From assembly GCF_037975245.1 (NCBI RefSeq), contig NC_092564.1:15131984-15195983 (forward strand): 64,000 bases of DNA, in the 5' to 3' direction. A program made the translations under genes and the position numbers. Below, in pieces: positions 855 through 39,800 of the stretch. How positions within the stretch are numbered: position 1 is the stretch's first letter; every line of letters starts with the position of its first letter. A model generated the notes under the pieces. That model had not been told where the DNA came from. It did not search any database and saw only the letters and a list, made by a program, of their open reading frames with translations. The DNA comes from Apostichopus japonicus (taxonomy: Eukaryota > Echinodermata > Holothuroidea > Aspidochirotida > Stichopodidae).

Positions 855-3800
855 TCAATCTTCCGTCTTTATTATTTTATCAGTGTACTCTCTGAGAATT
901 TTCTCTGCTTTGTCTCTGTTACATAGAAGGGTTGCCTTCCCTTGGTATCTTCCATTTTTGAATATCCCTTTACCCTTCAGTTCCTCTTCAATCCTGGTAT
1001 GAGGCAAACAAGGAGGGAGAAAAATAACAGTAACTTGATCGGTTATAAAGGTTCGAAGGTAGGATAAGTCTTGAAATAGTTTGCTTATAATTTGGCTTAT
1101 AAGTATAAGTTATAAGTAAATAAGTTATAAGTTATAAGTTGGCTTATAATTATTCACAGTGAACTTCTACATTTTGTTTCAGCTTATACAGAGATGTTCT
1201 TCATTACTTTGGTAAAACAAGTGTGTTGACTGGCCTAGGGATAAATGGAAAAATGTTCTTGTCTCAATGATGGGGGAGGGGGAGGGGGAGGGGAGGGGGA
1301 TGGAGGAGCTGTAGTCATGCAGTCAATGGTGCTTGTGGACTTATGCTTGGGTGGCAAGGAGTGGCATACAGTGACCCATGTCTTGAGAGCACTTATGGCC
1401 AGCATTTGTCAGGAGCTCTTTTGTTTTTAATTTTTCGTTCTTTTTAAACATGACATATAGTTGAAAATTTGTCTGCTGTAGCTTTTGTCCTTGTGTTTAA
1501 AACTTTTGCAACAAATTCTGAAATTTTATTCTGAAATTTTTGATGGGATGTCATGAAAAAAGCACTGTCAAAATTCGGATGTAAGACAAATACGCTGACA
1601 ATAGTTTCTTTTGTTGAGAGCAAAGAAACGGCCTTGAAGTAAATCATTGCAGTGTATGATGTCAAGGAACATTAGTTCTGTGATTTATGACAGTGCAGTA
1701 ACTGGACGACAGTAGGTTTGGCGTTACTCTTTACAAAGAAATCATATCAATCATAACAAACCCTTTTTTTAACTTTTCAAGGATAATTTAAGGCTCCAAC
1801 ATGCAAGGATATTTTGGTTGAGGGTAGATCATGATACAAAGTTATACATACTGTAGCTATGGTATATTTGCTCAAAGGAAAGAACGTGGTTTTTTATTTT
1901 ATTTTATTATCACAACCATCCCTTGACTGTAAAGATTGATTCAAAAAACAGTTTTTGAGAGATGAAAGCAAAATGAAAGGAAATTTGTTTGACAGTGGCA
2001 AATGTGGGTAATGTTGAAATTTTACCGAATCTTGTCAACAACAAAAAAGAAGCAAGCTTTTGAAACAACCACTCCAAACGTATCCCTTGTTTAATTGGCT
2101 ACCAAAGCATCTTCCTGTACAATGTTTATCACATATCACAAATTTTGCCACATGTGACAATGTGAAAGCAAATGAATACAATAAATCTATGCAATTTCTC
2201 TAAACAGCATCATATATAGTTAACCAGGGAAGTCATTTTCAACTTACTTTGGTCCAACCTCAGAAACGATTTCTTCTGGACCAGCCACTAAGAACATACC
2301 AGAGGCTTTCTCATCACCGACAGAGAGCATCATCAACGCATTCTAATGTGATCAAAGATATGAAAAATGGCACAGTGACATTTACTACTTTTTTGGTAAA
2401 CGAAAATTACTTCTTTTTGTCAGGGTTCTTTTGAGGCCCTGTTTGAGCAAATTCTCTCCTTCATCCAGACTCTCCATTAACGATACAGAGTTCAATGGGG
2501 ATTCCCTAAAAATTGATTCATAACTACATTTCTGTTACTGTTAAGTACTTGGGACCCTACTTGAGATCAAATGACTCGTGGCCTAATTAGTCTCGCTACC
2601 GAATAAATGGAATGGACTTGAGATAAAAATGACCTGCACTTTGACATAACACTAGTGACTCGTGGCCTGATCAGTCTCGTAACCAAATTAATTGCATGGA
2701 CTTGAGATCAAATCACCTGCATTTTCACATAACACTAGTGACTTGTGGCATGATTAGTCCTTGCAACCAAATAAATTGAATGGACTTGAGACCAAATAAC
2801 TTGCACATTGACTTAACACTTGCGACTTACAGCCTGACTTACAAATCTTTTTTACAAATGTATTTCAAAAGTAAAATGAACCCACTGTGATTAAAGAATC
2901 ATTGTCAAAGTTCAACTGCCAGAATAAAATTTGCCCACTTGAACAAATGGAACCCACCAAGTTGTTTGATTATATGCATTAATACCAAAATAAACTTTGT
3001 GTTCAGATACTTCAATACTCCAGAAATACTTAATACAGTTCTATGCATTAATATTAAATACACTTAATTAATAACCTGTCTTAGTATTCCAGGGAAACTG
3101 GTCAATCATCTTAATGCTACAACAAATATGTGCAGCTATATGCTATCATACTCCAGACAAAATCTGTAATTAACTGCCTATTAAAAGCGTTATGTTGAAA
3201 TGCTATGATAGTCCAACATAACTGTACGGTTATATGCTTTCATACTCCAAGGGCACATACCTGACATCCTATCTATAGTCCAACATAACTGTACGGTTAT
3301 ATGCTTTCATACTCCAAGGGTACATACCTGACATCCTATCTATAGTCCAACATAACTGTACGGTTACATGCTTTCATACTCCAAGGGCACATACCTGACA
3401 ACCTATCTATAGTTTAACATAACTGTACGGTTATATGCTTTCATACTCCAAGGGTACATACCTGACATCCTATCTATAGTCCAACATAACGTACGGTTAT
3501 ATGCTTTCATACTCCAAAGACACATATCTGACATCCTATCTATAGTCCAATATAACTGTACGGTTATATGCTTTCATACTCCAAGGGCACATACCTGACA
3601 TCCTATCTCGTTTGCAACCATGTTTAAGAATTCGCTGTCACCATCTTTCCGATGTAAACAGAAAACTGGATCTCGCTCGGGTTTATTGAGATAACGTTGA
3701 GCTTCTAAAACTGCGATCTCCCTCAGAAGGAGGAGGTTGGTCTGTAACAGAGAAAGAACACATTTAATTTGAAAACCTTCAATATACCTGAAAAGCTTGA

Positions 3801-9800: not shown

Positions 9801-10941
9801 CCATTTTAAGCTCGGGTTATCAGTCACAAGCCACAGCCCCTTACATCCTGTCTAGGTTTCTTTGCTCTTTTCCATTGTATATCACTGTACTTCTCAGTCA
9901 GTTTTTCATTCTTCATTTACTTGTATAATGTACATAGATAGCTGAATTTCTCTCAAAATGCCCTCACTGAGCTGCTTTCTAGATTGCATCAAATGAAACT
10001 TGGATCCCTAATTACATGGTATGCAAGATTTTGTGGCTGGCAACATGCCCGGCCGGAAAAGAAATGGGTATAGGGATTGCCACCAACTAAGAGCTACATA
10101 GCTCAGTTGGTGGAGCAATGGGCTTGTAATCCAGAAATCACTGGTTCAACCCTGTTCTAAACATAAATTTCTGTTCTTTTCCAAATATGAAGTTGATATG
10201 AAATAAACTACAATTACATCTCTTTTTTGCCTTATTGTTGCTCCTTCTTGTCTGTTTTTCATCATTCAATAATTTCACGGTATGTAAATAGAAAATAAAT
10301 AATAAGGAGACTTCCAGTTACCATCAAGTTTTTGGAACTAGATTTTTATCTTGGTCAAAGTACTTGATTCTTGATAAAGTGTTCCAAACTAGGGCATTCA
10401 ACCATCATCCTTGAAAAAGAGAACCACCAAAACACTGAAAGGTCCCCAAAATTACAACCCTCTCTTGACATGCACAGTATTGTAAGCATATATGCCTAGG
10501 CCTACATATCCACAGTCAATATCCAAGGTATCCACAGTCAATATCATATTATGTCCCCATGTCACCTATCGTTAATTACATGTTACATTAGCTGAGACAA
10601 AAACACTGTACATTTCGAGATAGTGCTACGGAAGATGTTTTTTTTATTTAACAATCAATACAATTCAATAAAAACTATCAGATATGAGACGTATCCTCTT
10701 CCATGGCTGTACGTGTGATCATAAATATCAAAAATATCCTGTTGACTGTAATTCTATTTACTTTCGCGGAATCGGTACTAGGCTATGATTCTTCAGAGAG
10801 AAACTTGCTAGTGTACAATAATAAGATAAACCTACATTTTCACCCTGATCTTATCCAAATACTTGATACATTCCAACACAAGAAAATCAACCAATAACTT
10901 ACCTCCCGTAGGTAGCTATCTTTTTGGCACTGAAAGGACAT
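855..10941 (-). CDS. AARSD1: AARSD1, alanyl-tRNA editing protein (AlaX-M type), 12 coding exons, 412 aa
   Basis: AARSD1 is a free-standing trans-editing enzyme that hydrolyses Ser (or Gly) mischarged on tRNA-Ala in the cytosol. Exons, 5' to 3' on the minus strand: 10941-10903, 9490-9362, 8646-8629, 7961-7820, 7487-7430, 7238-7082, 5906-5790, 5426-5296, 4802-4736, 3741-3595, 2342-2248, 993-855. All junctions are GT-AG, the phases close, and the sum is 1239 nt, matching the human length of 412 aa. The start is the ATG opening MSFQCQKDSYLRE. The FPEGGGQPDDRGT segment is followed by the zinc site: H104-x3-H108-x3-H112 (HMQQHSAQH, where the human protein has HSGQH) and C208-x3-H212 (CCGTH). The C-terminus has the family's GKG...GRYQGKA segment. 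Exon 10 overlaps a minisatellite that copies its splice donor. LACTB lies directly upstream on the same strand. Confidence 0.96.
2569..2826. repeat. Tandem repeat, about 83 bp x 3, AARSD1 intron 11
   Basis: Three diverged copies of a unit carrying GACTCGTGGCCT, then ATGGACTTGAGA and ACATAACACTAGT. They lie in the intron between the last two AARSD1 exons. No coding potential is seen. Confidence 0.75.
3206..3608 (-). repeat. 67-bp minisatellite spanning the 3' end and splice donor of AARSD1 exon 10
   Basis: Six copies of a 67-bp unit. On the minus strand each copy holds the last 14 nt of exon 10 (ending GATGTCAG) joined to the donor GTATGT. The authentic donor is at 3594-3593. Copies with an intact GT lie at 3461-3460, 3394-3393, 3327-3326 and 3260-3259. 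In the copy at 3527-3526 the GT has become AT, and that copy is also 1 bp short. Since 67 is not a multiple of three, use of a downstream copy would shift the frame. Confidence 0.9.
4324..4402. repeat. Simple repeat of ATACAGGATAAT type
   Basis: Short interrupted array of ATAATA and ATACAGGATA units within AARSD1 intron 9. Confidence 0.7.
5203..5266. repeat. AT-rich simple repeat, AARSD1 intron 8
   Basis: TATATA-rich stretch containing two copies of an AACATTGTTTATATATA-like sequence. It is noncoding. Confidence 0.6.
6478..6718. repeat. Two-copy tandem duplication, about 125 bp, AARSD1 intron 6
   Basis: The block from TTGCCCTGTTGGAAATATC through CACATTTAATAATTGATGTT occurs twice in direct orientation with very few differences, which points to a recent duplication. 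The short insertion between copies repeats the GCCCTTTTGGAAATATTTT start. Confidence 0.85.
8629..8646 (-). CDS. AARSD1: AARSD1 18-nt microexon 3 (PDDRGT)
   Basis: An exon of exactly six codons, in phase 0 at both ends, with a CCCAG acceptor before it and GTGAGT after it. It completes the conserved GGGQPDDRGT motif of the AlaX/AlaRS editing fold: exon 2 ends at GGGQ and exon 4 resumes at MNGCSVLRITR. Skipping it would keep the frame but remove part of that motif. Confidence 0.93.
9655..10160. mobile_element. Two tRNA-like SINE fragments in opposite orientation, AARSD1 intron 1
   Basis: At 10092-10155 on the plus strand there is an A-box-like TAGCTCAGTTGG (10099-10110), an anticodon-loop-like CTTGTAA, and a B-box-like GGTTCAACCC (10143-10152) at tRNA spacing. 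At about 9655-9680 the minus strand reads CACTGGTTCAAATCCC, a second B box. The acceptor stem does not pair, so this is not a functional tRNA gene. tRNA-derived SINE fragments, Thr(TGT)-like at 10092, fit best. Confidence 0.6.
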
Positions 10942-16639: not shown

Positions 16640-16915
16640 TGATCATACCCGTACTTGATATTCCTTTGTCCACATACTACTTCATACCGATTTATTTATT
16701 TTCTGATTTTGCCTTGACTTATTTTATTTCCTTTTTTACTTTCTATGTATCTTATTTTTGTAATTCTTAAATTTCACTATAGTCCCATGTGAAGTGCTTT
16801 GAGATATTCTTTTCTAAGCGCTATATAAATATATGTTACTATTATCATTATTGCTATTATCGTTATATGTATTATCAATATTATGATTATTATGATTACA
16901 TCATCAATATCATTA
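16640..16915 (+). mobile_element. Truncated CR1/L2-like LINE 3' end
   Basis: The segment GAAGTGCTTTGAGATATTC followed by AAGCGCTATATAAATAT is the usual 3' terminus of CR1/L2-type LINEs, which end in a short ATT or similar microsatellite. Here that tail runs straight into the long ATC array. The LINE at 47690-48560 ends in the same style (GTAAAGCGCATTGAGAC, CACTATGTAAATAAGC). No RT coding sequence remains in this copy. Confidence 0.7.
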
Positions 16916-17092
<177 letters not shown>

Positions 17093-19364: not shown

Positions 19365-22300
19365 ATGGCTTCTCAAGAATTAGGTGAGTTTTTGTCATCA
19401 AACAGAAAATCATATCGTTTTGCCATCAAGAGAAGTGATGTCATTGTAGACAGCTCCTTGTTTATCTACAGTGAAATTGACCATTTTTTTATAAATCATA
19501 ATAATATTAATGGTTATAGCCTATAGATATATTACTATGATCCACCTGGAGAGCAGTTGTCTTATGATGCTAAGCAGTCAAACATGCATGTTTGTGACAC
19601 AAATGGCATGTAAGTAAGACCTCCAGTAAGGTGGCTATCCACTTTACAGTTTTATCTACATCTGCACCACCCTACTCGTTTTACCCCTTTTAGGGGAGTT
19701 GAGTAGTATCACTCCAGATCCAGATCACTCCAGATCCAAATCTAATATTTGTTTGTTTTAAGAAGTCTGGGATCGAAACCACAACCGCCCAAATTCTAGT
19801 TGCATTGCTTCTTATGCCTCCACTTTTATCCATGCAAGCGTAGCGCGTTTATAACAGATATTTTTCTATGACACAGAAAAATTGCATAGGAATATGCAAG
19901 CTGAATGACTTCTCACGCTTCCAATTTGTCTCTGTGGAAACCATTTAATACAAAACCTTTTATGAAAAAACATGCTTTGTCTGCAATCTAAAGTCATTCA
20001 TTCTAAAACTTTTAATTTGCCTTGTATAAAGCATTTACTGTCATTTCTTTCAGCAATCTTGAGCGTGTCAAATAAGGAAGGCCTTGTCCAATTTGCGTCC
20101 GGTCTACATCAGGTTGGCCTGAAGCTGATTGGATCAGGAGGTACAGCCAAGGCCATCAGGGCTGCTGGGATTCCAATCAGGTAGGTGGTCAGCTTAGTTA
20201 ACACACTGCAGGCAGGCATCTGGCCAGTTACATACTGCAGGCAGGCATCTGGCCAGTTACATACTGCAGGCAGGCATCTGGCCAGTTACATACTGCAGGC
20301 AGGCATCTGGCCAGTTACATACTGCAAGCAGGCATCTGGCCAGTAACACACTGCAGGTAGGAATCTGTCCAGATACATGCTGCAGGCAGGCATCTGGCCA
20401 GATTATCAACATAATTATTTTGAATGGTCGTCATAGTTATGTCGTCTTGGTATTATTCTATCCAGTTGGAATCAATACTATAAGAGAGTGCCTCTGAAGC
20501 TAATTCATTCCTCTCATACATGTCGTTTACAAGGTTAACAGACTATTTTTGATGAATGCATAATTGTAGCACTATGTTCACGATCCTATATCACTGCTAA
20601 CAATTTTTATTTTGTACCTGGAGCATTCCTGTGTTAGGTGTCTTAAAATCCTGGTATTCAAAGTGGGAGTTGCAACCTTTTTGTAGTGTTAAAATATATA
20701 TTGGCGGGTCAACAACAATTCTGCAGAAATTGTTTTCTTTTTCTATATTTGTGGAAAATTGATTTTTTACACTAAGTACCCTTGATCATATAAAAAATTG
20801 CTGAAAGGTTAGAGGGGCACAGTTCCTCCCGAGAGCCTCCTGTCGGGTCACAACATCTCACTGGAGATGATGGAGGTGAAAATTTTGGGTCACCAGTGAC
20901 TTAATAGTATTGGAAATCTAGAATCAGCTGCTTTTTAATTACATTCAATATTACTCTATTCACTTTGACCTGCGGATTCTTACCCTTCTAGAATAAAAGT
21001 TCTTGTCGAATTTCCCCTCAAAATGTCCTTAATATTCTGTGGATGTTTATATAGATCTGTGAAAAGTTTGTTCCATCATTCGGTATATTGAAGGGAAGAA
21101 CAGCATGCAAAAATGACTATTCTACAGAGATTTGATTGAATGTATGTATTTTAGATCCTCCTGCAAGCAAGAACTCACGAAGAAGCCATTATTGGCATAT
21201 CAAAGCCGCAAGCTGACAGAAGTCAGTCTCTTAGATTCATATTTAACGTCCATGATTATGAATTGTCCATTGTTAACAACTTTGTAACTACACAACATAC
21301 ATTTCTCTTGGAGTGACTCGAACTTGGGACCTACATACTAATTATAACATACTAATTATATTTCACAGTGATGTTGGTGATGTCACAGGAGTAGCTGAGA
21401 TGTTGGGAGGAAGAGTGAAGACCCTTCACCCAGCCGTGCATGGAGGTAAATAATTCACTTTGATGTTCTTTAATAAGAGGGTGTAATCAAAACACAGAAC
21501 ATATCACTAAAAGAACAAAAACATCTACCTGTTTCTCCTTTTGATATTTAGCATTATCCTGGTGTCACTGATTTGAAAATAAAAGATAATATTGTTTACT
21601 TACAGTCAGGTGGTATCTATGTTTATTTTTTACCCCCTTATCTGAGTGCTTTCTCCTTTTTTCTTTCCTTTTTCCTGGTGTAAAGGAATTCTCAGCCGGA
21701 AGACTGAAGAAGATGCTGCTGACCTAGCAAAGAATAACTACAGTTACATCAGGTAAGGATTGGTTACCATAGTGATCGATGCATCATGAAAGGCAATGTG
21801 GAATTATTAATGTTATGGAACTTGTGTGATGCTCACCAGGGCTTCAGCCAGATTAAGATTTAATCAGGTGAAAAACACATACATTGTGGGATCAGTTCCT
21901 CCTTAATTTGTGCAAATAAGACAAGGCACATTTTGGGGTCAACGTCAATGACAAAATATCATTTAAGCGGTTTAAAAACCAATACCAGAGTCCTACCAGA
22001 AGACTGTAGACTCTGGGAATATCATATGTGACATATTCACATTTAAATTTAAGTTCATTCTTCGCCTTTCTGCGTCTTAAATTAGTAGCAAAAGTTATGA
22101 ACCAATGAAATTGTATGTTGGTGAAACTTTGTTTGATTATCCAGTACACACTTAACTGCTTGTACATTAATCTATGAAGGATTCAGAGAGTTTCAAAGCT
22201 TGTGTGACGAGGCAATATATGTCAACTCTTAAATGTCACAAGTATTGCCTCAAAATTTGAATTTGCTAATAAATGACGAACTCCCAGACATTGAGGAATC

Positions 22301-25300: not shown

Positions 25301-28300
25301 CCGTCAGCAATATTCCGCCGGGGTCTCTCAACTCACCCTCAGATATGGAGCCAACCCCCATCAGAAACCAGCTCAGCTGTTCACATTCGAACCCTCACTC
25401 CCCCTCAAGGTGCTCAATGGGTCGCCGGGCTTCATCAACCTGTGTGACGCCCTTAACGGCTGGCAGCTGGTGAAGGAATTGAAGAAAGCTTTAGGATTGC
25501 CTGCAGCAACTTCATTCAAACATGTGAGCCCTGCAGGTGAGATTCTATAATCTCTTCTTAGAATACAGCAGTGAGAGTGTGGTCCCTGTTTGATCTTCTT
25601 GTATAGCAAAGAGAGAGCTGTGGTGATGCAAATTTGCAGTGCAAAGTAAACTATTGGATGGGGGAGGGCTTGATGGGGGAGGGGGAATCAGGAGTTTTTC
25701 TAGTGTCACCAGGATTCATTATCTCTCTTTTGGTGGTAATTCAAACAAACACTTTTTCTGTATCTTGGGAGTTATCAAGTTGGAATAATTGTCACTTTTC
25801 CAAGACATTGCCAATTTTGATAAAGTGAGAACACTGTTGCCATTTCAGTCGAGGACTTGTTTCTTTTACGATGACAGATTTAGTGATTTTCCTTCCTTTT
25901 GACAAATTGTTTACAGGAGCCATGATCATTTGAGTTAAAATGGTTCCATTTTCTGCAAAGTTTTGTTCATTATAATCATTAGCTGTGTTCAAGGTTATTT
26001 GGAAGCATCATCCTGTTAATCCTTACAACAAAAATTAGTAACATTTTAAAATATTTGATCCTTTCTCTGCTCATAGGAATCTGTGATACAATTGCAAATT
26101 TTGCGTACAACTGTTTCAGAGACTTTCTACACAGTTGTCCGAAAGAATGTAACTCAAGTTTGTGATCTTAACTCTCTCTCCAATGTCAGAGTCATGTGTC
26201 ATGATTTTTCAGCTGTTAACAAATATCATCTCGAAGCATTGTTTAACTTGAAAGTTTGGTTTGACCAGGTGTGAGTCACGAATTATGTCTGCTCATAGGA
26301 ATCTCTGATACAATTGCAATTTTGTGTACGACTGTTTCAGAGACTTTCTACAGTTTCCACAAGAAAGTAACTCAAGTTTGTGATCTTAACTCTCTCTCCA
26401 TTGTCAGAGTCATGATTTTGAAGCATTGTTTAACTTGAAAGTCTGGTTTGACCAGGTGTGAGTCATGAATTATGTCATATCCGTCTTGTACAGGTGCCGC
26501 AGTGGGGGTCACCCTGAGTAAAGAACACGCCCAAGTCTGTATGGTAGATGATATGTTGGACAAGCTTACGCCATTGGCTACGGCCTACGCTAGGGCACGA
26601 GGTGAGTCTCTCTTGTGAATGGACACCATTTATGTATGCATGTATGTACTTTAGATCCTCCTGCAAGCAGGAACTCACGAAGGAGCCATCATTTGCTTAT
26701 CAATGCTGCAAGCTGACAGAAGTCAGTCTCTTAGATTCATATTTAATGTCCATGATTATGAATTATTAATTGTCAACAACTCTGTAACTGGACGACATAC
26801 ATTAATTTTGGAGTTACTCGAACTCGGAACTTATGATTGGAAGGCACCGGCTCTCTTTCTTGGGGCAATACTCTCAACAACTTTAGATTTTGGCTGGAAG
26901 TTAGTTTTATCTGGCCCTGTAGTGAAATATTTATCATGTCTTCTTAAGTTTGTATGGAAGATAATAGCAATATATTTTATGTGTGTTCTGAGTTAAACAT
27001 TTTTTTCTGTCCTCAGATATATATCATGTGGCATAAATGATTATTACGTCTCTGGTTCACCTTGGTGCATCCTGTTTTCATGATGTTACATTGGTGGGAG
27101 ATAATTCAGATAGCATTCTTCATCTTAATCCCATCTAGAAAGTTTTTTATATTTTTTATATATATATACATATTTTTTCTTCTTCTTTTTATTATTTTTT
27201 TTATTTATTTTTTCAAAGTTTTTGAATTTTTTTATATTATTTATCCATCCCTCAAGGTGCTGACCGGATGTCCTCTTATGGTGACTTCATATCCTTGTCT
27301 GATACCTGTGATGTTCCAACCGCAAATGTCATCTCCCGAGAGGTGAGCTTTATCAGGCTAGCCATATTTATACTTGTTAAACCACAAATGTCATCTCCCG
27401 AGAGGTAGCCATATTTACATACATGTAAAACCACAAATGTCATCTCTTGAGAGGTGAGCTTTATCAGGCTTGCCATATTTATATACTTGTAAAACCGCAA
27501 ATGTCATCTCCCGAGAGGTGAGCTTTATCAGGCTAGCCATATGTATATACAAGTAATTTGTCTTTTTTCTCTTTGCGTCTTTCCTTTGACATTTCACAAA
27601 ACTCTGCCTATTAGAATACAGATAGGATATGTTTTATCCTGGTGTTTGCTGCTCAGCATGGTGCTTGAAGTTGAGTCAAACCCCTGATTCCTGCTTTAAC
27701 ATGCTAAATTTGAATATTTATAAGAATATTTATTGCAAGGACAATGGTTCAGTTTTTTTCAGCTAACGAAATATCTACTGAATCAAGAGAATGTATGTCA
27801 TTCATCCTCACAGGTTTCTGATGGTATCATCGCCCCCGGTTACGAACCCGAAGCTCTGGCGATACTGTCCAAAAAGAAGGGTGGAAAGTACTGTGTCTTA
27901 GAGGTAACTTTGATCATTCCATCCTGAGATCTTATTTCCTGAAGGAAATGTGTGATTTTCATGAGCAAGGAGACAAAAGTGTTAATTTAAACGTTTTTTG
28001 TGAAATGTTGTCAAGTTATTCCATTTTCCCAAGATTTCCCCAAGTTGACATTACAATGTTCAGTGAAAACTCTGTATATAATAGTCTTCTTCTAGTAGTC
28101 CAGTAAAAGGTGTACAGAGGTGGGAGTAAATTATGTTTTGTTTTGTGACAGTGTAAGAAAGTTACGAGGTAATTGTAGTTCACATACATTGAAAGTAAGT
28201 CTAACTCTGGTGGCATCTACAATGACAGGATGGTAAAGCAAACGTTTGTTTTGGGTTTCAAAACAATAAAACATCATTTCAACCTTACCTGATGGTGAAC

Positions 28301-31300
28301 ATAATAGTTAATACATAATCATTTAGCCCTTTTTTCCCCCTTCCTTCCTTCTTTACTTTTACACTGCTAGATTGATCCCAGCTTCGAACCAGATGAGATG
28401 GAAACAAGGACACTGTTTGGCCTTCAGCTGAGCCAGAAGCGAAACAACGCAGTCATAGACAGGAAGCATTTTGAAAATGTCGTAACTGACAGGCATGAGG
28501 TAAGTAGTGACAACCCTCTGATATGGGTAACACTATGAACAGAATTTAAAGATTTGTCTTGGTAAGCACCACTAGATTTCTTTCTGGGTTTGTTGGGTTG
28601 GGGGCTGGGGACAGGACTGGCTGGGGATGTGGAGGGAGATTTAGGAGATCTATGTTTGTAGTTTTATTTGTTACTATCGACAACCAATCAAAGATTAAAA
28701 TTATGTTACAAATAGGCATAAGGGTGTCAAGTCAAATAAGAATTTCTGAGATTCTGTTTATACATTTATGTAGAAGCTTTGGGTCGGCAAATTCACTTCT
28801 AGTGGGTTCTGTAACAAATTGCATAGTGTTTTTTACAGGGTTTTGAATCTTAGGTTTTGAATCAGGTCCTTCAAGACTGCTACACAGACTTTGAACTCTT
28901 TAAGTAAATCATTCCCTGCTTCTAATCTAGGATGGAGAGCTCTTGTCTTAATCTCTTCTGTCTTCATGTCCTCAGCTGCCAGAGAGTGCTGTGAGGGACC
29001 TGATAGTGGCCACCATCGCTCTGAAGTACACCCAGTCAAACTCCGTCTGTTACGCCAAGGATGGCCAGGTGATTGGAATTGGAGCTGGCCAGCAGTCTAG
29101 GATACATTGTACCAGATTAGCGGGAGATAAAGCCAATAACTGGTATGTTGAGTCTAGGGTGTGTGGGGTTAGAATTACAACCAGATTAGCAGGAGATAAA
29201 GCCAATAACTTGTATGTTGAGTCTAGGGTGTGTGGGATTAGAATTACAACCAGATTAGCAGGAGATAAAGCCAATAACTGGTATGTTGAGTCTAGGGTGT
29301 GTGGGATTAGAATTACAACCAGATTAGCAGGAGATAAAGCCAATAACTGGTATGTTGAATCTAGGGTGTGTGGGGTTAGAATTATAACCAGATTAGCAGG
29401 AGATAAAGCCAATAACTGGTATGTTGAGTCTAGGGTGTGTGTGATTAGAATAACAACCAGATTAGCAGGAGATTAAGCCAATAACTGGTATGTTGAGTCT
29501 AGGGTGTGTGTGATTAGAATTACAACCAGATTAGCAGGAGATTAAGCCAATAACTGGTATGTTGAGTCTAGGGTGTGTGTGATTAGAATTACAACCAGAT
29601 TAGCAGGAGATTAAGCCAATAACTGGTATGTTGAGTCTAAGGTGTGTGGGATTAGAATTACAAATGGAATGTGGAGACTTTCTTTCTCTTTCTATTACTA
29701 GAATTAGTCTGGGATGAGGAATTCCTGGTGAAACTGGTGGCATTTGAAGTTGGGGGAAGGGGTGGGGGTGGGGAAATTGGGGTAAAATAGAACGGGTTGT
29801 TGCAATTGGTATTTACATTCTTAAAGTCTACAAGGCATATAACCTCATTCAATGTTACATATGTTGAATTCTTAATTGATATGTAAGTAATTTGTATGGA
29901 CCCACATTTGAAGTATCTCACGTTGTTACCTTCAGTGCAGTAAGAGAGAAACAGTATAACATGTGTCTTTTCGATATTTAATATCTTATAAACACTCTGG
30001 AAAAACAATGATTGAATCGGTCATATCTAGAATTATCAAGAGAAATTTCTGCTCAAAAAATGTTTGTTTTGAGTTGAGTAAAAATCATCACAGTTGACTA
30101 CAGACGTATCAGCATTTACCTGGGCACCTTAAGTCCTTTTTGAATGATTGAACCTACGGTTTAACCTATGACCTATTTATGCATATCTAACGAGCAACCT
30201 TATTGTGACTCTATCACTTCTGAGTTTTGACGTGGCGATCGTTTCAAATTTGTCGGTTTGGGTTTCTCCAGTTTGCCCCGAAAAGAAGGTATTTTAGTGT
30301 CATTAGTTTGTCAAATGTTTGATTTTAACCCACAGGTGGCTGAGGCAACATCCCAACGTCTTGACTTTGAAATTCAGAAAGGGAGTGAAGAGGGCAGAGA
30401 AGGCCAACGTGATCGATGTCTACGTCAACGGCACCGTGGGTCAAGACATGCCCCGGGATATATGGGAGGACATGCTGGAGGACCCACCTAAGGACCTGAC
30501 AGAGGTATGTACAGAGGTATCAAGTGTACCTCTTGAATTAGGAAAAGTCTCCAGCACCAACATATGTATACCAAAAACAGAAAACAAAGATAATGTGTAG
30601 CTCCAACTATCTTCTTCTTAGCATCTTCCATTGCTTACATGTAAGCTTCCGAAGCAACATTATCACTACCATTTATCTAGGCCTAGATTTTATACAAATT
30701 CAGCCACTTGCTTTTAAAGAGAAGTAGGGCTTGAAAAATCTACTGGCTAAAGTCAATTTCAGGTACTGGTATTTTGCTGATCTGCAAAACACATCAGTTA
30801 CTTTATAGGCTTTTGGGAGCAGCCCAGTAATACTTGCTGATGATAAGCTGTGATACAACGCTTGAATTAGGTACCGGAATTATGAGGATCCTTTATTGAC
30901 TGACAATTGTTAACCCCGTTACCATGGGGTTAAGCTCTTAATGTCTACTGGCACACAATTGCCACCGCCATTTTTTTTTCCATGGCAAAATCCACTGACC
31001 ATTGTATTGTAAAATAGCCCAAATATTCAGGTTTTGCTTTCATCAATATATGTTTTGGAGAAACTTCTAGAAGTTGATAACTACCAGATAGATCTGCTGG
31101 TGAGAGAACTAACTAACTCATTTCATGGAGTGACACAAAGACTTTTATTGACATTTTCACTCGCTTTACATTTTAGAAAGAGCGGCAAGAATGGATCGAT
31201 AAGCTGGACGAGGTCTCCCTAAGCTCAGATGCCTTCTTCCCTTTCAGAGATAACATTGATCGAGCTCAACAGGTAAGTTGGCCTCATTTCTTTGTACCAT

Positions 31301-36805: not shown

Positions 36806-39800
36806 ATGGCAGAATGTCCCAGGAGTATCAGTTCGCTTTCAACCATACCAGCAGGTGACAAAGGTAATAACAGCACCATCGACTGGCACGACATTCCCGT
36901 TTTAGCCTTAGGACCGACCGTCAGGAATAAATTGTCCCTGTACTTAAATCGGGAACTGGACACAGCCAAGGACTGGAGATATCTAGCGGAGATTCTAGAC
37001 TATGAAACATTGGACATCCAGAATTGGGAGCGACGACGTGACCCTACGAGAGAACTGTTGAATAATTGGGGGAGTAAAAGAGGCAGTTCGGTCGGAAAAC
37101 TGCTGGACAATATTCACCTGATTGAACGAGAAGATGTCATAGAGGACATTGGGCTTCTCATCGGTAAGTGTATTTGTGTTATCTTCGGGGTATGCGTCAT
37201 AATTTAATGGGCCTTGAGTGTCTGATATATTAGAAGTTAAGGTCATCAGGTCCCGAGTTCGAGTCCCAAGTTCTCAAGTTCGAGTCACTCCAAGATTAAT
37301 GTATGTCGTCCAGTTACAGAGTTGTTGACAAGTCATAATCATGGACGTTAAATATGAATGTAAGAGACTGACTTCAGTCAGCTTGCGGCTTTGATAAGCC
37401 AATGATGGCTTCTTCGCGAGTTCCTTATTGCAGGAAGATCTAAAATACATTCATCAAGATTGGACACAAATTTTAGCAGGCAGAAAATTGTTCTAGAAGT
37501 TTTCAAAAGTACTTTCCTATTGACTCTAATCTTCCAAATTTAAGAAATTATTACGATAGAAATTTATATATACCAGTGTGGATATTTAGGAAATGATGAA
37601 AATGGAAATAATATAGATTTAGTGTGGATAAACTGCCTTTTAGTTCTCGGGGAAGTAAAATGCTTGTTGCAATATTCGAGCATTTGTGACCAGTATCTGA
37701 TTTTCTAGCATAAAGTTAGGGGCATTACCTATGATCTTCAAACAGGCAAATTTAGACTTTGTTCAATTTTTATGGACAGTTCAAACTTGAAGGGCTCTCT
37801 GTCCTGTCACTTTTGTCGTTGATCAATTTGGGTATTTGTTTTCAAATGATTGATTGAGGAAAGGAATTGGTTTGTTTGTAATTTCCTTGTCCAACTGAGT
37901 TTCACTTTATAAGCATGTATCAACAGGTCTATTCCATGGCTTTGGCAACTTGTTTCAAAACAGAGTTAGGTAAAGATTTGCTCAGATACAGTAATAGTTA
38001 ATCATCAAACTTTGTTCATGGATTGCTATGAAACAAAATTACTGGACTATGCTTAGGGGAGAGGGGGGGGAGCTTTTGTACATTTAGTGATGAAAAACCT
38101 TGCAGCAAGCTACTTTTAGGCCCATTCAGTACCTGAGAGATATATTAACAAACATTAACAACTATTCCCTTTTTAAATGGGACTATCTAGCTCTAGCTGC
38201 TCCTCTTATTAAGGTAGAAGCAATTACCTTCAATCGTCATGGACAACTCCCTGGAACAGATATATTAAAGAAAATTCTTTTTCTATTTGTTAGTTATCAC
38301 AGTTTTAATGTTCCTTCACACACAAGGCTGGAGACTTGAGCAAGTCTGAATATGATATCATCAAATGGTTCAAACCCCATGCTTGATTTTTCTAATGGTT
38401 TTCTTGATTCATTACAATGTTTATTTGCAGAAATGTAGCTCTAGCATTTCTCAAATACTGATTACATAAAAACATTGAACCTCTTAAAGGCATTGAAGAC
38501 TCGCCCCATACCGCGTGTTGCCTTCTGAAAAAGTTAACTTTCCGTTGCTTGCAAGTGAAGTTTTCTACTTGTCGCTACAAAATGCAGACAGTAAAAACTC
38601 CCTGCTGAGATGTCCATCGCTGATATGTACACTGTGTTGTGGGTATTGACCGCAGCTGTATGTATTGACTGTACACTAGTGTCCAATTACCGATGATAGC
38701 AAGCTGTGTGTGTATTTTCTGGGATCGATGGTGGTGTCTAACACTTCTGTTACACCTCATGGAAACTAGGTCAGATTACCGGCATCAGACATTTCTATGT
38801 GCGCGAGTCTTCACTCCCTTGAACAGTACCTGTATATGACCTAATGATGGCATTAGTTCAGGGTTACCTTGAAGATATAATAAGAAGGGGTAAAAAACTT
38901 TACTTCCCACTGGCACTACCACATCACAGATATGCAAAACAACAGCCTCTGGACACAGCTCTTTTAAACTTAATTTATGTCCCAAACAACAAAGATTTTT
39001 TTATAGCTGTTTGGGGGACTTTTTTTGTCATGACAGTGATCTCTATCATATTATAGATCTATGCAATTTGTGGTTTGCTTTGATATGTCCTTTAAATCCA
39101 TGTCTAGTTTGTACAGTACGTAGTGTAACTTCTAGGGAAAGGTTGATTACCCAAGTGCTATCAAGCATCAAGGGCTTCACAAGAATCCGTCTTTGGAGCC
39201 TCTTGAATATCAATGAAGCCCTACTTATAAACCTGTAGTGTACCAGATAGAACTAAGTGTATTATATGGTAACTATTTCAAACTATTTCATAGTCACATC
39301 ATTGTCTGAGGGCAAGGTGAATGCAAGGTTGCACTCTTTCTTTATCACAGTGATCTCTACCGTTTTACAGATGAAATTTGGGGTTTGCTACATATCCTTT
39401 AAATCTGCTTCTAGATTGTACAATACTTAGTTTAATTTCTAGGGAAATATTGATTACCCACTATCAAGCCTCAAGGGCTCAACAAGTGTCACCTGTAGAG
39501 CTTCTTGAATACCAATGAAGTCCTACAAGTTATACACCTGTATTGTATCAGATAAAACTACTGTAGATATGTATAAATGTATTCAAGTTAAACTATGTTA
39601 TAGTCGCGTTGTCTTCAGGAGGGCAAGGTGTCACAAAGTGTCACCAATAGTCAAATTGAGGGCAAGGTGAATGCACGGTCATAATCAGGTAATAATTATA
39701 AATACTGTATACCCACTATAAAGCCTCAAGGGCTCAACAAGTGTCACCTGTAGAGCCTCTTGAATACCAATGAAGTACGTCCTACAAGTTATTCACCTGT

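Follow-up and report, generated by a model that had tools for sequence, protein, structure and literature searches.

The ATIC gene in the 64-kb stretch of DNA analyzed here (hereafter, the window) raises the question of why the end of a coding exon and its splice donor should recur in tandem at the head of the following intron, and whether the additional donors alter the protein or simply leave with the intron.

Gene content of the window

Matches to solved ATIC structures were collinear from approximately 20.0 to 32.1 kb across three forward frames and, together with splice signals, gave a predicted model in which 16 coding exons join without a frame break and encode 592 residues with the Pfam domains MGS and AICARFT_IMPCHas. 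Exons 4 and 7 of this model were set by eye, as no match was found for human residues ~76-94 and ~154-175. Two further genes were modeled by eye, one of 12 exons on the minus strand (412 aa, tRNA_SAD domain) and one of 6 exons (302 aa, Death and TIR domains), which by their sequences and domains are probably AARSD1 and a MYD88-like gene, respectively. GC content was ~37% over the whole window; that of Branchiostoma is higher, which makes a source other than a lancelet possible.

Several other repeats were observed in the window. The sole Rfam tRNA match (10098-10156, 34.7 bits; none was called by ARAGORN) is perhaps a tRNA-derived repeat, and a long CAT trinucleotide repeat lies at 16841-17092, with ~65 units from 16899. 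A dispersed element of ~190 bp occurs at 21137-21324, 26637-26824, and 37268-37457 (86-88% identical), with one of the three copies inverted and two inside ATIC introns.

Anatomy of the exon 13 array

Tandem Repeats Finder reported the array at 29111-29663 with a period of 69, 8.0 copies, 96% matches, and 0 indels, and a 25-mer spanning the donor (up to three mismatches allowed) matched eight times, six exactly and two with one mismatch, compared to 0 matches in 100 shuffles. Both results agree with the preliminary description of this DNA, which had recognized the last 32 nt of ATIC exon 13 plus the donor eight times at 69 bp; its placement of the array was also right, the exon being number 13 of 16 in the predicted model (Table 1). 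Nine positions vary among the eight copies, with a mean difference of 4.35%. The claim that all eight carry a donor holds for the GT, which is kept in 8/8 copies, and for the full donor 9-mer CTG/gtatgt, which is identical in 7/8 (score 8.99), but the copy 2 donor is weakened to CTT/gtatgt (4.27 vs 8.99 for the other six extra donors).

Table 1. Coordinates of the three donor-spanning arrays and of the landmarks around ATIC exon 13 (a slash marks the exon-intron boundary)
Feature	Position	Strand	Basis or comment
AARSD1 exon 10 array	3208..3608	-	six 67-bp copies of the donor and the last 12 nt of the exon (3741-3595)
ATIC exon 10 array	27320..27556	+	exon end (27257-27342) plus donor; 4 copies of ~64 bp
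ATIC coding exon 13	28976..29142	+	predicted model, in frame throughout; copy 1 is its final 32 nt (29111-29142)
Exon 13 array, eight 69-bp units	29111..29662	+	each unit: final 32 nt of the exon, first 37 nt of the intron
GT of first (genuine) donor, CTG/gtatgt	29143..29144	+	gene model and donor scoring
Weakened donor of copy 2, CTT/gtatgt	29209..29217	+	score 4.27 vs 8.99 in other copies
In-frame TAA of copy 6, likewise in copies 7 and 8	29474..29476	+	copy comparison and translation
ATIC coding exon 14, acceptor ccacag/GT	30336..30504	+	gene model

Predicted products of the eight donors

When each of the eight donors was joined to the acceptor at 30336 and translated, donor 1 gave an uninterrupted 592-residue ATIC without insert, donors 2-5 gave open, in-frame products with 23, 46, 69, and 92 additional residues, and donors 6-8 led to a stop at the TAA at 29474-29476, a change common to copies 6-8. 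These are the four extensions and the premature stop that had been predicted in the preliminary description, and both its frame arithmetic and its stop were borne out by the joined translations. The mRNAs from donors 6-8 would be expected to meet NMD. Five copies are open in frame because the unit length of 69 is 3 x 23, and this openness is probably a coincidence.

The putative insert would fall between N464 and W465 of ATIC, just past residue 461, where the Pfam AICARFT profile stops. Across exons 13-14 the peptide aligns without gaps to solved chicken and human ATIC, and no residue was inserted exactly at N464/W465 in any of 80 aligned PurH relatives (the best 80 of at least 586 confirmed). 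The spacing to SSDAFF among the same best 80 of at least 586 is 72 residues, as here, in 12/80, 10 in 64/80, and 7 in 4/80. Hypothetical extended isoforms would thus adjoin a segment of naturally variable length and would therefore be less unlikely to fold.

Two further donor-spanning arrays

Donor-spanning arrays are not confined to exon 13. A 40-mer over each of the 31 donors and 31 acceptors (31 introns in the three predicted models) was compared to the 700 nt on either side, and three donors scored 34-40 while all other sites scored at most 12; none of the 31 acceptors was spanned by an array in this test. Besides exon 13, the donors were those of ATIC exon 10 and AARSD1 exon 10, whose arrays were absent from the preliminary description. 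The ATIC exon 10 array, which Tandem Repeats Finder detects in part, carries donors after 27342, 27404, 27453, and 27517. The acceptors that follow the two arrays are at 27814 (ATIC exon 10) and 2342 (AARSD1 exon 10, minus strand). Joined translation showed that every extra donor in these two arrays leads to a premature stop, and yet the full donor score is kept in 2/3 extra copies at ATIC exon 10 and 4/5 at AARSD1 exon 10. The persistence of intact donors that could give only stops is easiest understood if splicing takes the first donor and the others are removed along with the intron, and it weighs against the idea that such arrays are kept because they switch protein length.

Two other arrays lie near donors. 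A 29-bp array of ~7 copies (20196-20401) starts 16 nt past the ATIC exon 2 donor (20180) and does not include it, and an 84-bp array of ~3 copies (2572-2827) lies in AARSD1 intron 10, the start of which is the 67-bp array.

Whether tandem arrays favor donors was evaluated with 13 arrays hand-picked from 47 Tandem Repeats Finder rows (period of at least 20, overlapping rows merged); in this set the ATIC exon 10 array was extended to 27320, and the row 1099-1139 (period 22) was excluded because it belongs to a 7-bp repeat. Under random placement, the expected number of donor-spanning arrays was 0.35 vs 3 observed for all 13 (P = 0.005) and 0.54 vs 3 for the nine gene-body arrays (P = 0.013), and with donors and acceptors pooled the values were P = 0.03 and 0.08, respectively. 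Arrays spanned 3/31 donors vs 3.3% of 1500 random positions (P = 0.08). A preference of tandem arrays for donors is thus only suggested, with P ranging from 0.005 to 0.08 by the null chosen.

Comparison with known systems

The closest counterparts are the lancelet "mirages", which passages of PMC3087553 describe as minisatellite-like tandem copies of exon-intron boundaries, at either boundary, of Adh3 and of globin genes; their units measure 10-160 bp, they comprise few to several copies, and the copy number varies between haplotypes. RT-PCR suggested that splicing is undisturbed (in the same passages; non-interference is likewise stated in part of PMC3902484), and further mirages are described in PGBD5 and TnC, with the first repeat abutting the splice site (PMC3902484, in part). 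As in these lancelet cases (Adh3, the globins BflGb6 and BflGb9, TnC, and PGBD5, as far as the passages describe them), the unit at ATIC exon 13 lies across the exon-intron boundary and the splice signal is present in the copies, which are both anatomical features of a mirage. The described mirages occur at either boundary, whereas the three arrays here are all at donors. By this analogy the exon 13 array would be a further mirage-type minisatellite, and the conserved donor-1 protein suggests that it is probably neutral for splicing. Among the papers listed in a literature search, none showed a mirage outside lancelets in its title or the opening of its abstract.

The human gene IFI6 (6-16, G1P3) is reported, in work attributed to Turri et al. 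1995, to contain a minisatellite with multiple splice donor sites. Two downstream repeat units are said to act as donors, giving three mRNAs (PMC4526556, in part), and so in IFI6, as at ATIC, an exon is followed by several donors lying in a minisatellite. Use of the downstream repeats is reported for IFI6, and for the ATIC array it would be hypothetical. IFI6 is the best precedent for a switch and keeps one possible.

Splice signals are also copied, as here, in intron gain by internal tandem duplication of AG/GT-bearing segments (discussed in passages of PMC3087553). A new intron forms in that process, but none is seen here, as the copies lie inside intron 13 between conserved ATIC exons. Intron gain was rejected as an explanation on these grounds, the flanking exons matching solved ATIC in order.

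Explanations for the array

We consider it likely, with a probability of roughly 0.8, that the exon 13 array is a mirage-type minisatellite in which donor 1 is mainly used and which is close to neutral. The array probably arose when a 69-bp segment across the exon 13 junction of ATIC (3' end of the exon plus its donor) was duplicated in tandem, and the duplicated unit would then have been amplified into the intron via unequal exchange or slippage, with the original junction staying intact as copy 1. The spliceosome would mainly pick donor 1, and copies 2-8 would be discarded with the intron, leaving the array close to neutral. We infer donor-1 dominance, neutrality, and this mode of expansion from the anatomy, the sister arrays, and the uninterrupted donor-1 ATIC with its gapless exon 13-14 peptide. 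What counts against this reading is that six extra donors score the same as the first. When donors are duplicated in classical competition assays, the intron-proximal one is often preferred.

Three possible contributors to a first-donor advantage or to a common origin were evaluated. RNA structure masking the extra donors was rejected, as 29083-29722 shows no folding advantage over shuffles (z = +1.51; 19/20 of them fold at least as well), and a G-rich transcript strand was rejected as a common cause of the arrays, as the skew is +0.43 and +0.31 in two of them but -0.10 in the third. TAGGG, an hnRNP A1-type site, follows the donor in 7/8 exon 13 copies (38 TAGGG in total on the plus strand of the window) and is found in neither consensus unit of the ATIC exon 10 and AARSD1 exon 10 arrays. 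Since hnRNP A1 is said to favor the intron-distal donor (PMC5585400, in part), TAGGG may be a reason why the first donor would win, though this is a weak lead.

The preliminary description had proposed instead that the array is a length-polymorphic switch, in which several donors would be used, giving ATIC with 23-residue repeats, while donors 6-8 would produce NMD targets and so tune the level of the enzyme. Its anatomical basis stands (the gene is ATIC, each unit joins an exon end to a donor, five copies are open, and copies 6-8 carry a stop), but the switch itself has gained no direct support, and we consider it improbable. The open frames of donors 2-5, the match of donors 3-5 to the first in score, the reported use of downstream repeats in IFI6 (PMC4526556, in part), and an insertion point adjoining a segment that is 7 or 10 residues long rather than 72 in 68/80 relatives (best 80 of at least 586) would all suit it. 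They are set against the sister arrays, which could yield premature stops only, the absence of an insertion exactly at the site in those 80, and the array peptide itself, as most inter-copy differences in the open part change residues and the in-frame translation (29144-29473, 110 aa) had two Pfam matches, both below curated cut-offs. The alternative offered in the same description, in which splicing always picks the first donor and the array is neutral, has the better support of the two, given the sister arrays, the lancelet mirages, and 80/80 relatives. An error of assembly in the copy number, or in the array itself, is very improbable: one lancelet mirage was aberrantly assembled in a draft genome (PMC3087553, in part), but here the copy differences are ordered (e.g., the TAA common to copies 6-8) and three arrays with different units are present.

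The weakened second copy hints that the extra donors are not fully neutral. Like copy 2 at exon 13, copy 2 at ATIC exon 10 scores only 4.09 vs 9.51 for the other two extra donors, owing to a 15-nt deletion, and copy 2 at AARSD1 exon 10 has its GT changed to AT while the other four extra donors score 12.18. Copy 2 is thus the uniquely weakest extra donor in 3/3 arrays, a pattern that was noticed post hoc. With one lesion per array, placed randomly over its extra copies, this would have a chance of 1/7 x 1/3 x 1/5 = 1/105. The next intact donors lie 138, 111, and 133 nt from the real donor (ATIC exon 13, ATIC exon 10, and AARSD1 exon 10, respectively). This could reflect competition, in which the nearest duplicate donor diverts some splicing, its disabling is favored, and farther donors are tolerated, the array being otherwise neutral. 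We hold this as a tentative and rather doubtful addition: the pattern was spotted after the fact in three arrays only, two of the copy-2 donors, at 4.27 and 4.09, still outscore the weakest of the 31 donors (3.33, that donor itself being included in the scoring matrix), and several other changes in copy 2 of two arrays make general divergence possible. The confidence given to competition overlaps with that given to the near-neutral reading because copy-2 competition can coexist with an array that is now neutral. No counterpart of the weakest-copy-2 pattern was found in the passages of the cited literature. Still more speculative is the generalization that donor-spanning minisatellites abound in this genome, with the nearest duplicate (62-69 nt) selectively disabled and intact donors at 111 nt or more tolerated.

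Implications

For ATIC itself, the likely consequence of the array is none. What adds interest is that a single window holds three of these arrays and that the nearest decoy is damaged. It has been proposed that new introns may come from arrays of this kind (PMC3087553, in part). Three donor-spanning arrays in one 64-kb window suggest that there are more in the genome. If the source of this DNA is not a lancelet, the phenomenon extends beyond cephalochordates. Near-identical donors beside the real one offer a ready-made in vivo test of 5' splice-site choice in which position is the main variable and, if the nearest duplicate is indeed selectively disabled, the arrays would be natural experiments on the distance over which a decoy 5' splice site competes.
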